A program made the translations under genes and the position numbers. From NCBI RefSeq assembly GCF_012271785.1, contig NZ_JAAWVT010000016.1, positions 1 to 60,169 of the forward strand: 60,169 nucleotides of DNA, in the 5' to 3' direction. This DNA comes from Paeniglutamicibacter terrestris. Lineage in GTDB: Bacteria; Actinomycetota; Actinomycetes; Actinomycetales; Micrococcaceae. Below, piece after piece: positions 40,177 through 60,093 of the stretch; position 1 is the stretch's first letter, and each line of letters begins with the position of its first letter. The notes under the pieces were generated by a model. That model saw only the letters and a program-made list of their open reading frames with translations, had not been told where the DNA came from and searched no databases.

Positions 40177-40285
40177 AAGGTCATGAGTTTCAGCAGATAG
40201 CCCCGGCTTGCTGAACGGCAACCCTCCACCGCGGTGGGGTGCCCCGGGTGAAGACCAGGCCCCACATCAAAAAGATGTGGGACAA
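40177..40285 (+). promoter_or_regulatory. SAM-IV-type riboswitch upstream of metY-metX
   Basis: The segment shows the conserved SAM-I/SAM-IV core: AAGGTCATGAG, then GCCCCGGCTTGCTG, CGGCAACCCTCC, CGCGGTGGGGTGCC, CCGGGTGAAGACC. GGTC at the 5' end pairs with GACC at the 3' end (P1). A further hairpin (CCCACATC-AAAAA-GATGTGGG at 40261-40281) follows, as in the extended SAM-IV architecture known mainly from Actinomycetales. It lies about 85 bases before metY. S-adenosylmethionine binding would reduce metY-metX expression; a variant SAM-I/IV class is possible. Confidence 0.85.
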
Positions 40286-40366
40286 GCGCGGGAATGCCCC
40301 CAGCATTGACACGGCCCCCACTCGGGCCGGCTTTGGGCATACCCCAGAAACATTGAAGGGTACGTC

Positions 40367-52390: not shown

Positions 52391-53407
52391 TTACTTTTTC
52401 CAGCCCAGTTCTCGGGCGATGTTCGCGATCTCCGTCATTACGTGGGTGTTGTAGTCCACGCCTAGTTGATTCGGCAGCGCGAAGAGCACATAGTCGGCCT
52501 CGGTGATGGCTTCATCGTTGATGAATTGCTGCGCGACGTCCTCGGGGGATCCGGCGTAGGTAGGACCCGAGCGCGCCACCGACCCGTCAAGCACACCCAC
52601 GGAGTCGCCGTGCTCGCGGCGCCCGAAGTAGATCTCATCGGTGTTGGTGGTGATCGGGAACGCGCTGCGGGTCACCGCCGTCATGCCTCCGGTGCTGTGA
52701 CCACTGGCGGCATACGCGTCCTTATATTGGCGTAGCTGGTCCGCCTGCAGCACATGGAAGGGGCGTCCATCGTCCTCTAACAGCAGCGTGGAGGACAGTA
52801 GATTCATGCCCACCGATCCTGTCCACACCCCCGATCCGATGGTGGCCGCGCCCCACCAGATCCGGTTTTCCAGGCCAGGGGAGAGGGGATTGATGGGCAG
52901 TAACGAATCCTGATCGTGATGGCGATCCGGCATTGGATGGGCCATTCCGGCCCCGGAGATCGCGGTCCGGAAGCGGGCGGTACGCGCCCGGGTTTCAGTG
53001 GCCCAGTCTTGGTCAGGTTCCAGGTCGTAGCCAAACTGATGTTGCCCATCGCGGGCGGATTCGGGTGAGCCGCGGCTGATGCCCAGCTGCAGTCGCCCGT
53101 TGCTGATGGCGTCGGTCGCTCCGGCCATTTCTGCCATGTAGAGGGGATTCTCATAACGCATGTCAATGACCCCGGTTCCCACTTCCAACGTAGTGGTCTT
53201 CGCAGCCATGGCCGCGAGCAGCGGGAACGGGGTGGAAAGCGAATTGCCAAAGTGATGCACCCGCATCCATGCCCCGTCAAAACCCGATTCCTCGGCGGCC
53301 ACCGCTAGGTCCAGCATTTGGCGCACGGCATCGGCTCCGGTGGGCACCGGCGATTTACTGGAGCCGCCCGAATGGCCAAAGGTCAGGAAACCAATCTTCT
53401 TTGTCAT
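52391..53407 (-). CDS. LLM class flavin-dependent oxidoreductase
   Basis: A 338-residue luciferase-like monooxygenase fold enzyme: MLDLAVAAEESGFDGAWMRV, LEVGTGVIDMRYENPLYMAE, SNGRLQLGISRGSP and QFINDEAITEADYVLFALP. It uses reduced FMN (or F420) to oxidise an unknown substrate. The ATG has GGAG 5 bases upstream. The gene is alone, with the reverse transcriptase 150 bases upstream on the same strand. Confidence 0.88.
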   Translation of the reverse strand: MTKKIGFLTFGHSGGSSKSPVPTGADAVRQMLDLAVAAEESGFDGAWMRVHHFGNSLSTPFPLLAAMAAKTTTLEVGTGVIDMRYENPLYMAEMAGATDAISNGRLQLGISRGSPESARDGQHQFGYDLEPDQDWATETRARTARFRTAISGAGMAHPMPDRHHDQDSLLPINPLSPGLENRIWWGAATIGSGVWTGSVGMNLLSSTLLLEDDGRPFHVLQADQLRQYKDAYAASGHSTGGMTAVTRSAFPITTNTDEIYFGRREHGDSVGVLDGSVARSGPTYAGSPEDVAQQFINDEAITEADYVLFALPNQLGVDYNTHVMTEIANIARELGWKK

Positions 53408-53529
53408 GCGTGCTCCGATCGATGGCTGCGCCTAGAAACTCCTGCTTCAAGGTACAAGCGGCTCAAGCGAGAAAACATTCCATTAAGAAATGACGGTTAT
53501 CTCTCCAATGGGCTCAAGACAGTCAGATG

Positions 53530-53545
53530 CCCCGCACGTGCGGGG
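53530..53545. repeat. 16-bp palindrome resembling a CRISPR type I-E repeat core
   Basis: CCCCGCACGTGCGGGG, set in a 27-base context resembling actinobacterial type I-E CRISPR repeats (which carry CCCCGC-N4-GCGGGG and end in CC). Only one copy is present and there are no cas genes. It lies 14 bases after the reverse transcriptase stop, so it may simply be that gene's terminator hairpin. Confidence 0.5.
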
Positions 53546-53558
53546 AATACCTCGAGGG

Positions 53559-54944
53559 CTACCACTGGATTCGATGAAAATCGTGCAGCAGCTTGGCGCC
53601 CCGGTCAGGATTGAGTGCAGCTACCCACGAGACATGCCCCAGAAGATAGCCGCGGAAATCAGCATGGGCCTCCCTGTTTTGCGATTCCGGCCCGAAGGAA
53701 AGGCAGTTGTGGAGGATCGCTTTGAGCCGGTCAAAGTCCGAACGAGTGACATTGGTGTGCTTGTTGACCACCACTGATGTCACCAGTTGCCGAACACTGG
53801 CAGGGCGCACACGTGTTTTGAGCCGGTTGGCTTCGTGGCCCTCGGCTTCAATGATGCTGATGGCAGTACGAATGAAGGCAGAGGTTCGCCGCGCTAATTC
53901 GTTGCCGCCGCTAAAGGCGAGGTCATCGGCGTAGCGGGTGTAGCGGGCGTCGAACTTCTCCGCGAGCCCCGAGAGACGGGAATCCAGCCTCCGCAAGGAC
54001 AAATTTGCCACCATGGGTGAAGTTGGCGCACCTTGAGGAAGATGCGGACGTGCCAGCGCCTGCCGCAGCGCAAAACGTTCCGTGAGATTGCCGCCGGGAG
54101 GCATCAGGGACAAGACCCTCGGTGGGACTGAGTGGGTGCAAATGCCGGTGAGTCGATGCGCTACAGATTCAGTAAATCCGGCTTGCCGGAGCGTACCAAA
54201 TACTCGCCCGGCGGGGACCTTGGCGAAAAATGTCACCAAATCGAGGTTGATCACCACCTCCTGACCGGTGTGCTGTGCCGCGCCGGTGCCGGCACTTCGG
54301 CCTGGAACAAATCCGTGCGCGGCGTCATGGAGCTCAATGGGGTACAACAGCTCCCGCAGCACAGTTCTTTGAATATTCCGCAAACGTGGGGCAGGAATCT
54401 CCAGCAAACGCGGAAGTCTGCCCGGGCGCTGCCGCCACTCGTAGCGGTAATGCTGAAGCTTCCGTTCGGCCTTCCGGTTCCAATGTTGCGGATCGGAAAA
54501 CCATTCCAACTCCCCATAGCTGAGCTCAAGCAGTCCCGCGAGGCTGGCTAGGGTGTCAAGGCGGGGAATCTTGGGCTGCCTGTTCTCACGGGCTGTTGCG
54601 GGGAGAAGTGCATAGTTGGCCACGCGCAATGGTTTGCGTTGATGAGCTGCCTTGGCTACAGCCTCGGTGAAGGGATCACTCAGGAAGATCGTTGCGGCCA
54701 GTTCGCGCGGAGCGTCGATGGGTGGCCGCGGATACATTTGCAGAATCTGGGTTATCAGGGGACCCAGCCAACGCCGTCTTGCGCCTAAAACGTGCGCGCC
54801 GGCGCTGATGAGTTCGGCCCTTGCCCATCGTGGAGAACCGAGGAAAGCTTGCGTCAGTATCGCTGCAATGGCTGGCGCTGTGGGGTGGGGCGTGCGCCTC
54901 AGCGTTGCCGAAGCGGGGGTCACCGGGGCGGGGTCAGTTGTCAT
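53559..54944 (-). CDS. Retron-type reverse transcriptase
   Basis: A 461-residue reverse transcriptase. An N-terminal helical region (1-120) precedes the RT domain: LQHYRYEW and RLPRLLEIPAPRLRNIQRTV (fingers), HDAAHGFVPGRSAGTGAAQH (203-225, retron-like motif 3a), VINLDLVTFF (catalytic Asp235), LPQGAPTSP (302-310), RYTRYADDLAFSGG (catalytic Asp340-Asp341), LVTSVVVN (retron VTG position reads VTS) and LKAILHNC. There is no intron maturase or integrase domain, and the architecture resembles myxobacterial retron RTs. The retron hallmark NAxxH reads GAAQH here. Met at MTTDPAPVTP is chosen because it begins four bases after the putative msr-msd RNA; 27 further codons open upstream lie inside that RNA. 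It probably makes multicopy single-stranded DNA and could serve anti-phage defence, but no effector gene is adjacent. Confidence 0.85.
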   Translation of the reverse strand: MTTDPAPVTPASATLRRTPHPTAPAIAAILTQAFLGSPRWARAELISAGAHVLGARRRWLGPLITQILQMYPRPPIDAPRELAATIFLSDPFTEAVAKAAHQRKPLRVANYALLPATARENRQPKIPRLDTLASLAGLLELSYGELEWFSDPQHWNRKAERKLQHYRYEWRQRPGRLPRLLEIPAPRLRNIQRTVLRELLYPIELHDAAHGFVPGRSAGTGAAQHTGQEVVINLDLVTFFAKVPAGRVFGTLRQAGFTESVAHRLTGICTHSVPPRVLSLMPPGGNLTERFALRQALARPHLPQGAPTSPMVANLSLRRLDSRLSGLAEKFDARYTRYADDLAFSGGNELARRTSAFIRTAISIIEAEGHEANRLKTRVRPASVRQLVTSVVVNKHTNVTRSDFDRLKAILHNCLSFGPESQNREAHADFRGYLLGHVSWVAALNPDRGAKLLHDFHRIQW

Positions 54945-54948
54945 GGGT

Positions 54949-55113
54949 GCGATGGTTCTCCGATGACCTAGCTGTCTGTGCGGGTGCCGAGCTGCGCGAA
55001 GCGCAGAGACGCACCTGCGGTGCATGGATCAGGCAATACTGCGTACCCCGGGGTATCCCCGGAGAGGAACGCGTGCTAAAAGACGCTTCCCACCTCATCG
55101 AAGAAACCATCGC
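54949..55113 (-). ncRNA. Candidate retron msr-msd RNA
   Basis: On the RT-coding strand, GCGATGGTTTCTTCGATGA (55113 to 55095) is complementary to TCATCGGAGAACCATCGC (54966 to 54949). They form an 18-bp helix with one bulged base and one G-U pair, in the place expected for retron a1 and a2. The enclosed 128 bases hold further hairpins: CCGGGG-TAT-CCCCGG (55048-55062) and a nested stem with GGTGC/GCACC outside CTGCGC-GAA-GCGCAG (54983-55015). AGC trinucleotides soon after a1 could provide the branching guanosine. The RNA ends four bases before the RT start codon. Sizes and boundaries are inferred from pairing only. Confidence 0.7.
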
Positions 55114-55501
55114 ATAGTGCCATGCTAACCGAAGGCCGTGGCACGGTCAGTGAAATCTCCACGGACGAGCACTCGAGGCAATTCCACACTGACCAGCGCT
55201 ACCAACCACGGCTGATGCCCTTTGCAGCAGTTACTAGATCTCTGCGCTGTCGAGTCCTCGAGCCTTGTTCCGTTGAACCCAGGCAGACACGATTCCGCTG
55301 TGACGTCGATCAACCGGCCGAACTTGGGCTGGTTCATCCGCGTCGTTGCCACATGTCCAAAACGAAAGGCTCACGTGTTCTCATTTACCGGCAAACGTCA
55401 GTGGCACACTCCAATGCTGGCAGTCCACGCAATATTCGCGTGTGATGCACAAGTCTGCCCTTCGGTGGCACGGATTTGGATCTATTTGAGAGAATGGGTT
55501 A
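55114..55501. other. Intergenic region between the retron and dus
   Basis: Nearly 390 bases with no supportable gene. It holds two inverted repeats, GTGCCA/TGGCAC (55117-55144) directly before the retron RNA and GGTCAGTG/CACTGACC (55145-55194). They could belong to the retron promoter or extend its RNA. The right end must hold the dus promoter. Confidence 0.4.
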
Positions 55502-56698
55502 GTGACTGCAATTTCCGACATATCTCAAACAGACGCGCCCACGCCGGCGAAACTCGAGCTGCCTCCGCTGCAGTTGGGTAAGCACACCGTTAATACGCCA
55601 GTGATCCTGGCGCCGATGGCTGGCATCACCAACAAGGCGTTCCGACGCCTATGCCGTGAATACGGTGGCGGCGTCTATGTCACCGAGATGGTCACCTCGC
55701 GTGCCCTAGTTGAACGTAATCCCGAATCGCTGCGGATCATTTCCCACGATGCGGATGAATCACTGCGCTCCATCCAGCTTTATGGTGTGGACCCCAAAAC
55801 CGTGGGCGCCGCCGTGCGCTTGGTTGTTGAGGAAGGTCGCGCCGACCACATTGACTTGAACTTCGGCTGCCCCGTTCCTAAGGTCACCCGCAAGGGTGGT
55901 GGAGCAGCACTGCCATGGAAGACCGATCTTTTCACTTCCATCATCAAGGCAGCCACCACCGAGGCAGCTCGTGGAGATATCCCGCTGACCATCAAGATGC
56001 GCAAGGGCATTAACCAGGATCACCTCACCTACATCGAGTCCGGCAAGATCGCCCGTGACCACGGTGTAGCAGCGGTGGCACTGCACGGCCGCACCGCCAG
56101 CCAGTACTACTCCGGCAAGGCCGACTGGGATTCGATCGCACGACTGCGCGAATCCCTGCCCGATGTCCCGGTGTTGGGCAACGGAGATATTTGGAGTGCC
56201 GAGGATGCTGTAGCCATGGTGCAGCAGACCGGTGTTGATGGCATCGTTGTAGGCCGTGGTTGCATGGGCCGCCCGTGGCTGTTCGGTGACTTGCAGGCTG
56301 CCTTCGAAGGCACCGACAAGCGATTCACTCCGGGTCTGGCCAAAGTCGCCGAGACCGTGTACCGCCACGCCGAACTGCTCACCGAGTACTTCGAGGACGA
56401 GTTCAAGGCGCTGCGCGATATTCGTAAGCACATGGCCTGGTACTTCAAGGGCTACCCGGTGGGAGGGGACATTCGTTCCGCCCTCGCCCAGGTCCCCACC
56501 CTGGAAGTCCTGAGTGAACTGTTGGCACAGCTGGATCTCTCCATGCCCTACCCGGGCAAGGATGCCGAAGGTCAGCGTGGACGCGCCGGTTCGCCGAAGA
56601 AGACGCACCTGCCCGATGGCTGGCTGGCCACGCGCGAAATGGACGAAAAGCACAAGGCCATGATTTCCGCGGCCGAACTTGACGTCTCGGGCGGCTAG
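55502..56698 (+). CDS. dusB: tRNA-dihydrouridine synthase (DusB-like)
   Basis: A 398-residue flavoenzyme reducing uridines in tRNA. FMN-binding TIM barrel with VILAPMAGITNKAFRRLCRE, the catalytic Cys123 in LNFGCPVPKVTRKGGGAALP, ALHGRTASQYYSGKADWD and VLGNGDIWSAEDA; a helical RNA-binding C-terminus follows. GTG start, with GAGAAT 6 bases upstream and no good Shine-Dalgarno. Followed after 7 bases by dgt, an arrangement common in actinobacteria. Confidence 0.92.
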   Translation: MTAISDISQTDAPTPAKLELPPLQLGKHTVNTPVILAPMAGITNKAFRRLCREYGGGVYVTEMVTSRALVERNPESLRIISHDADESLRSIQLYGVDPKTVGAAVRLVVEEGRADHIDLNFGCPVPKVTRKGGGAALPWKTDLFTSIIKAATTEAARGDIPLTIKMRKGINQDHLTYIESGKIARDHGVAAVALHGRTASQYYSGKADWDSIARLRESLPDVPVLGNGDIWSAEDAVAMVQQTGVDGIVVGRGCMGRPWLFGDLQAAFEGTDKRFTPGLAKVAETVYRHAELLTEYFEDEFKALRDIRKHMAWYFKGYPVGGDIRSALAQVPTLEVLSELLAQLDLSMPYPGKDAEGQRGRAGSPKKTHLPDGWLATREMDEKHKAMISAAELDVSGG

Positions 56699-60013: not shown

Positions 60014-60086
60014 TCCTCCGTAGCTCAATTGGCAGAGCATTCGACTGTTAATCGAAGGGTTACTGGTTCAAGTCCAGTCGGAGGAG
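60014..60086 (+). tRNA. tRNA-Asn (anticodon GTT)
   Basis: A full cloverleaf: acceptor TCCTCCG/CGGAGGA, D arm TAGCTCAATTGGCAGAGCA, anticodon arm TTCGACTGTTAATCGAA with anticodon GTT, and T arm ACTGG-TTCAAGT-CCAGT. A discriminator G and an encoded CCA (60087-60089) follow. TAGAGT 14 bases upstream is a plausible -10 box. Confidence 0.97.
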
Positions 60087-60093
60087 CCAAAAC

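Follow-up and report, generated by a model that had tools for sequence, protein, structure and literature searches.

The window analysed here, 60,169 nucleotides of Paeniglutamicibacter terrestris (assembly GCF_012271785.1, contig NZ_JAAWVT010000016.1, positions 1 to 60,169 of the forward strand), carries between a luciferase-like gene and dusB a reverse transcriptase (RT) gene on the reverse strand, immediately preceded by a region bounded by an inverted repeat. An initial annotation had proposed a retron at this place: an RT together with its msr-msd RNA. In our analysis the locus is very probably a retron, with a predicted msr-msd RNA at 54948-55114. Its features are given below, with their basis in brackets.

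53559-54944, minus strand: retron reverse transcriptase, 461 aa, YADD (Pfam, PADLOC, NCBIfam, PDB sequence and fold comparison, motifs)
54630-54884, minus strand: N-terminal helical domain of the RT, residues ~21-105, a domain of ~100 residues (AlphaFold model, conservation)
54948-55114, minus strand: predicted msr-msd RNA, a1 to a2 (covariance model match, fold z -5.2, covariation)
55122-55127, minus strand: -10-like hexamer TAGCAT, 7 nt before a1, with no clear -35 (position)
55095-55114, minus strand: a1 strand of the closing stem (inverted repeat, covariation)
55094, minus strand: predicted priming guanosine, directly 3' of a1, context GAGG (invariance, and the rule in the available text of PMC6868368)
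55066-55091, minus strand: msr hairpin 1, of variable sequence, with two-sided changes at 2/4 pairs of the stem base (covariation)
55046-55064, minus strand: msr hairpin 2, CUCCGGGG-AUA-CCCCGGGG, 6/8 pairs invariant in Micrococcaceae
54967-55045, minus strand: largest plausible msd template, 79 nt, with a predicted DNA 3' end (inference from anatomy)
54980-55018, minus strand: msd hairpin, with two-sided changes at 7/7 pairs of the outer stem and a nearly invariant inner CUGCGC-UUC-GCGCAG
54948-54966, minus strand: a2 strand of the closing stem, 3 nt before the RT start codon (inverted repeat, covariation)

The RT reading frame was open at 53559-55025 (488 aa), and the ATG at 54944 was taken as the likely start because four close homologues (L002, L058, L059, and L062) start with Met at the equivalent position. 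YADD and LPQG, two motifs named in the initial annotation, were found at residues 338-341 and 302-305, respectively, and the Pfam match was RVT_1. The top PADLOC models were RT_other (PDLC02949; 572.8 bits), whose match spanned nearly the whole RT including the N-terminal domain, and RT_outgroup (PDLC03740; 542.3 bits); the RT clade is thus already modelled in PADLOC as an untyped one. The best numbered type, RT_XIII (282.9 bits), was confined to residues 147-487 of the 488-aa frame; type XIII calls for a match over the full length, and here the RT part alone was covered, with 283 bits vs 573 bits for RT_other. Three NCBIfam retron models matched at 136-148 bits, under their own cut-offs. Retron Ec86 RT was the best match in the PDB sequence search, and also the closest fold (7v9x; E 3.4e-18) to the AlphaFold model, which had a mean predicted local distance difference test score (pLDDT) of 81.1. 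These results identify a retron-class RT with a YADD core. The ratio of nonsynonymous to synonymous substitution rates (dN/dS), estimated for eight pairs, ranged from 0.11 to 0.18 across the RT part and from 0.16 to 0.42 across the N-terminal part, indicating purifying selection. A search of its own genome at E 0.001 gave no match besides the RT itself.

The inverted repeat that had been described around a region of about 165 nt before the RT was recovered as two adjoining repeats, one of 10 nt (100% complementary) and one of 11 nt (91%), which combine into the a1 and a2 arms listed above. The internal hairpins proposed for this region were also supported by covariation. The stretch 54945-55118 (174 nt) folded at -79.1 kcal/mol, compared with a mean of -59.6 kcal/mol for shuffled sequences, and 0 of 200 shuffles were as low. 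In an alignment of 35 Micrococcaceae sequences (33 distinct; alignment A1) with a 43-pair structure, 96.9% of cells were paired, and 24 pairs showed two-sided change (187 two-sided cells). The corresponding values were 14.9 pairs and 52.2 cells (means) in shuffles, a control inflated by relatedness, and 6-11 pairs and 9-31 cells when the partners were slid, a control that keeps relatedness. Two-sided changes occurred at 15 of the 18 pairs of the a1/a2 helix; none occurred in hairpin 2 and the inner msd stem, the sequences of which hardly vary in Micrococcaceae. In a second alignment (A4), which was fitted to the structure and had 29 rows, the window plus 28 sequences on which the model below was not trained, 95.8% of cells were paired and 36/43 pairs changed on both sides.

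A covariance model was built from the 35 sequences of A1, including the window, which as a training sequence scored 169.9 bits at 54946-55119. The initial annotation had proposed a covariance search over homologous RT loci as a check, and had named a lack of covariation in the a1/a2 stem as what would overturn it. The stem covaries strongly, and the model matched 60 of the 61 loci of the window's RT clade, and outside the training set 25 of 26 (E 3.7e-18 to 3.6e-5), Paraburkholderia among them. The matches lay on the RT strand (58/58 by script; the window and L117 by reading), and the distance from the RNA end to the start of the RT match, which is not a proven start codon, was at most 176 nt in 54 of 58 loci (eight overlapping) and 300-602 nt in the other four, where the RT match was partial. 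All three plasmid RT loci inspected (Tsukamurella, Dietzia, and Burkholderia), among 17 plasmid records, carried the RNA. As a negative control, the model was run on 80 retron-like RT loci of greater distance, all from viral contigs, and matched none (E 1). Within the genus, four of the 15 genomes gave strong RNA matches, and these are also the four with a close RT. A different RT of the genus, with 29% identity to that of the window (L007, 189-1037, on a small contig of genome G007), does not have this RNA. Rfam contained no match to the predicted msr-msd RNA. A structured RNA with an a1/a2 closing stem therefore adjoins the RT throughout nearly the whole clade, and the retron interpretation is supported by the a1/a2 covariation, the RT models, and the distribution of covariance-model matches.

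In this RNA, a1 is followed directly by an invariant G and then by the two msr hairpins, after which a linker leads to the msd hairpin, with its nearly invariant CUGCGC-UUC-GCGCAG-like core, and a short tail connects this to a2. According to the available text of a 2019 review (PMC6868368), the inner end of a1 contains, or stops right before, the priming G, the context of which is most often TAGC, with the variants CAGA, CAGC, GAGC, and ACGC. The G directly after a1 was invariant in our alignments (35/35 rows of A1 and 29/29 rows of A4), which places a predicted priming guanosine at the inner a1 end, as in known retrons. In actinobacteria its context was GAGG or GAGA for the most part (GAGC in L108 and CAGGA in L109), and in the two Burkholderia-group RNAs it was AAGC. 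Many homologues have TAGNNT/TACNNT-like hexamers similarly placed upstream of the RNA, as judged by eye and uncounted. A GGAGAA stretch within a2 (54948-54966, minus strand) could be the ribosome site of the RT, and RNA folding and RT translation may compete in the window's subclade, GGAGAA lying inside a2.

The following mechanism may be proposed on the model of known retrons. The promoter just before a1 would give one transcript, the msr-msd RNA followed by the RT. The RNA would close via the a1/a2 stem and present the two msr hairpins and the msd hairpin, as the covariation suggests, and the RT would prime DNA synthesis with the 2'-OH of the invariant G (55094), its copying of the RNA beginning at 54967 and running backwards through the msd hairpin. 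By the rule known for retrons, the product would be a branched multicopy single-stranded DNA (msDNA) of roughly 56-79 nt, the lower value applying to a stop four bases beyond the msd hairpin and the upper one to a stop at hairpin 2. RT, RNA, and msDNA would presumably remain one particle. The most likely route for the output step, put forward tentatively because no separate gene for an effector was seen to accompany the unit, would be the helical domain fused to the N-terminus of the RT, acting as an effector or by docking a host protein. Phage defence would, by analogy, be the most likely role.

Residues ~21-105 of the RT were predicted to form a helix bundle, which gave no Pfam match, no PDB match, and no known fold. 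The median identity to the window across the clade was 0.47 for residues 21-75 and 0.38 for residues 76-125, vs 0.62-0.64 for the RT core, and, as the substitution rates above indicate, the N-terminal part evolves under constraint. Since it is conserved and no other candidate was found, this domain appears to be the best candidate for a built-in output part, an assignment that we regard as the most likely one and yet hold with less than even confidence. It is possible, if somewhat doubtful, that the loci represent a two-part actinobacterial retron clade, consisting of the msr-msd RNA and an RT whose N-terminal domain is an effector or sensor; if so, one protein and one RNA-DNA molecule would be the whole system.

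In search of a separate effector, the genomic site was compared across the genus; of the 12 members that have no retron there, all but G013 (11 genomes) were included. Three sister genomes had 51, 60, and 61 nt between matching flanks, vs ~2.0 kb in the window, and four had 0.84-1.03 kb of other DNA, never resembling the window's 2.0 kb; in three of these four the site DNA was homologous (74-83% identical), and in two (L231 and L233) there was a reading frame of 187-195 aa, which we take to resemble YceI. In the remaining four genomes the luciferase-like gene was unmatched in the fetched stretch. The extent of the variable DNA in the window is as follows.

53402-55421, no strand: approximate extent unmatched in retron-less sister genomes, ends not base-exact

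Between the luciferase-like gene and dusB the genus thus has a variable site, which is occupied by a retron, a YceI-like gene, or other DNA, or is almost empty, with the direction of change unproved. In the window it contains the promoter, RNA, and RT together with short open reading frames (ORFs) of at most 119 aa in 55122-55581. In one genome (G001) the retron lies at another place, and its match to the window is just 53559-55133, that is, the promoter, RNA, and RT. No neighbour gene was shared clade-wide: among 60 loci, the two largest neighbour clusters had 13 loci each, of which 9 and 8, respectively, came from one genus with conserved gene order. Accordingly, no separate effector gene was found at the locus or among the neighbours of the 60 loci, the rest of the genome not having been searched for one. 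A perfect G+C palindrome, CCCCGCACGTGCGGGG, at 53530-53545, 13 nt past the RT stop and with no T run, is possibly a terminator.

The closest named relative of the RT was that of Paeniglutamicibacter gangotriensis Lz1y (85% identical). Counted at E 1e-40 or better, with the genome itself included, relatives occurred in 37 of the 395 genomes searched in the family, 14 of the 396 in the order (3 within the family), and 14 of the 394 in the class (2 within the family); in the genus, 5 of 15 genomes were positive at E 1e-20, one at just 29% identity. Paraburkholderia and Burkholderia hold relatives at 46-50%. When the PADLOC model was used for the search, 3 of 296 genomes of the phylum were positive, again with the own genome included, as was one of 14 control genomes, the archaeon Methanosarcina acetivorans, for which a putative retron is named in the review text available to us (PMC6868368). 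In a FastTree tree of 52 RTs, read without branch support, the sequences grouped mostly by family, and the window's genus was nested within another genus of the same family; this topology suggests that the RT descended within families, with some transfer between genera. One relative with its adjoining RNA (L130, 3033-4298) is located on a Dietzia plasmid, near a mercury reductase gene and a transposase.

Several observations weigh against the retron interpretation or parts of it. Of the motif regions that the initial annotation had named, YADD and LPQG held, whereas region X reads GAAQH instead of the textbook NAxxH, and motif 7 (region Y) reads VTS instead of VTG. In a 52-row RT alignment, the first residue of region X was N in 3 rows and G in 39, followed by A in 50 and H in all 52, and motif 7 was VTG in 33 rows. 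In the available text of PMC6868368, NAXXH is found in 14/16 validated retrons and VTG in fourteen; Ec48 and Mx65 depart from the former, and Vc81 and Ec48 from the latter. Both are therefore usual but not strict retron marks, and the absence of NAXXH lowers the retron claim without excluding it, because two validated retrons are also without the N. In addition, actinobacterial RNAs mostly have G or A (C in L108) following the priming G, in place of the usual C; the covariance model missed one of the 61 loci, L091, where the RT match was partial; and the msDNA and its synthesis by reverse transcription are predictions. As for function, defence is argued from analogy, and the effector role of the N-terminal domain from a conservation below that of the RT part and a lack of alternatives; since the ORF finder recovered the RT in 55 of 60 loci and missed it in 5, a small shared gene could have been missed.

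The same two motif changes raise the question of a decayed retron, inactive in this host through VTS and GAAQH. VTS, which occurs in 8/52 rows including the window, is consistent with such decay, to which we give a slim chance, considering the open frame, low dN/dS, and intact RNA fold, the departures from both motifs in validated retrons, and the fact that G for N in region X is the commonest state of the clade. Another reading takes the RNA not as the template of the RT but as a cis-regulatory leader of its gene, the fold hiding the ribosome site in a2: a2 stops 3 nt short of the RT start and includes GGAGAA, and the closed stem could block translation. However, the spread of RNA-RT distances, up to several hundred nucleotides, fits a start-site switch poorly, the priming G is invariant, and strong RNA matches in the genus are limited to genomes with a close RT, with none at the 80 distant RT loci; a leader alone is very unlikely. 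Finally, the RT could be a non-retron enzyme with an associated RNA, namely a group II intron RT, a defence-associated or unknown-group (DRT/UG) RT, or a diversity-generating RT, given that the RT fold is common to all and that NCBIfam models of group II maturase and Drt2 matched weakly, at 45 and 35.5 bits, respectively. These scores are far below the curated cut-offs of 300 and 390 (the NCBIfam retron models were also under theirs), and the 25 of 50 PADLOC matches listed were all retron RT models (103-573 bits). Rfam gave no match to intron RNA, and the RNA has an a1/a2 stem and a priming G, which makes a non-retron RT exceedingly improbable. A retron with this msr-msd RNA remains the preferred interpretation.

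Those retrons that have been studied best work together with an effector, whether separate or fused. A clade that extends over many actinobacterial families, with a unit that as seen comprises RNA and RT alone, asks what msDNA does without a travelling effector gene. The initial annotation had regarded an actinobacterial retron as new ground, which holds in part: retrons in Actinobacteria had been predicted before (PMC6868368, in its available text), PADLOC models exist, and the text available of another review (PMC8867640) already notes that other retrons seem to be without a clear nearby effector, so that the novelty lies in the identified RNA with a predicted start base for the clade. This RNA may be useful for finding msDNA in actinobacteria and as parts that make single-stranded DNA in GC-rich hosts.

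Elsewhere in the window, a SAM-IV riboswitch (113.8 bits) was found at 40179-40294 (plus strand), and tRNA-Asn (gtt) at 60014-60089 (plus strand), at the window end.

Among known systems, PADLOC RT_other and RT_outgroup are matched by the RTs of four further loci (L003, L103, L111, and L117) as by that of the window; these are names for untyped RTs, with no RNA or effector attached in the output obtained, and PADLOC has its own msr-msd covariance models (PMC9252829). The window clade differs from the retron types with known complexes in that it has no recognisable effector. Retron-Bth1, likened to it here by description, is without an obvious effector, and its RT is unclassified among those of retrons, according to the text available (PMC12548924). 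Retron Eco1 (Ec86) is the best solved relative and the best fold match of the window RT (23% identity in the fold alignment), and the general plan is common to both: a1/a2 with a priming G at the inner a1 end. Ec86 differs in that its solved complex includes an effector (by the title of 7v9x), none having been found for the window retron, and in its shorter chain of 320-349 residues vs 461 aa. The nearest parallel in print is provided by retrons with an extended RT N-terminus as in the window, the myxobacterial Mxa1 (Mx162), Mxa2 (Mx65), Sau1 (Sa163), and Nex2 (Ne144), likened by their description in the available text of PMC6868368. The predicted msd of the window (~56-79 nt) is shorter than that of Mx162 (162 nt), and the priming context is GAGG/GAGA in the window clade vs CAGC in Mx162 and Sa163 and GAGC in Mx65. 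For Mx162 and Sa163, vertical inheritance is stated in the same text.
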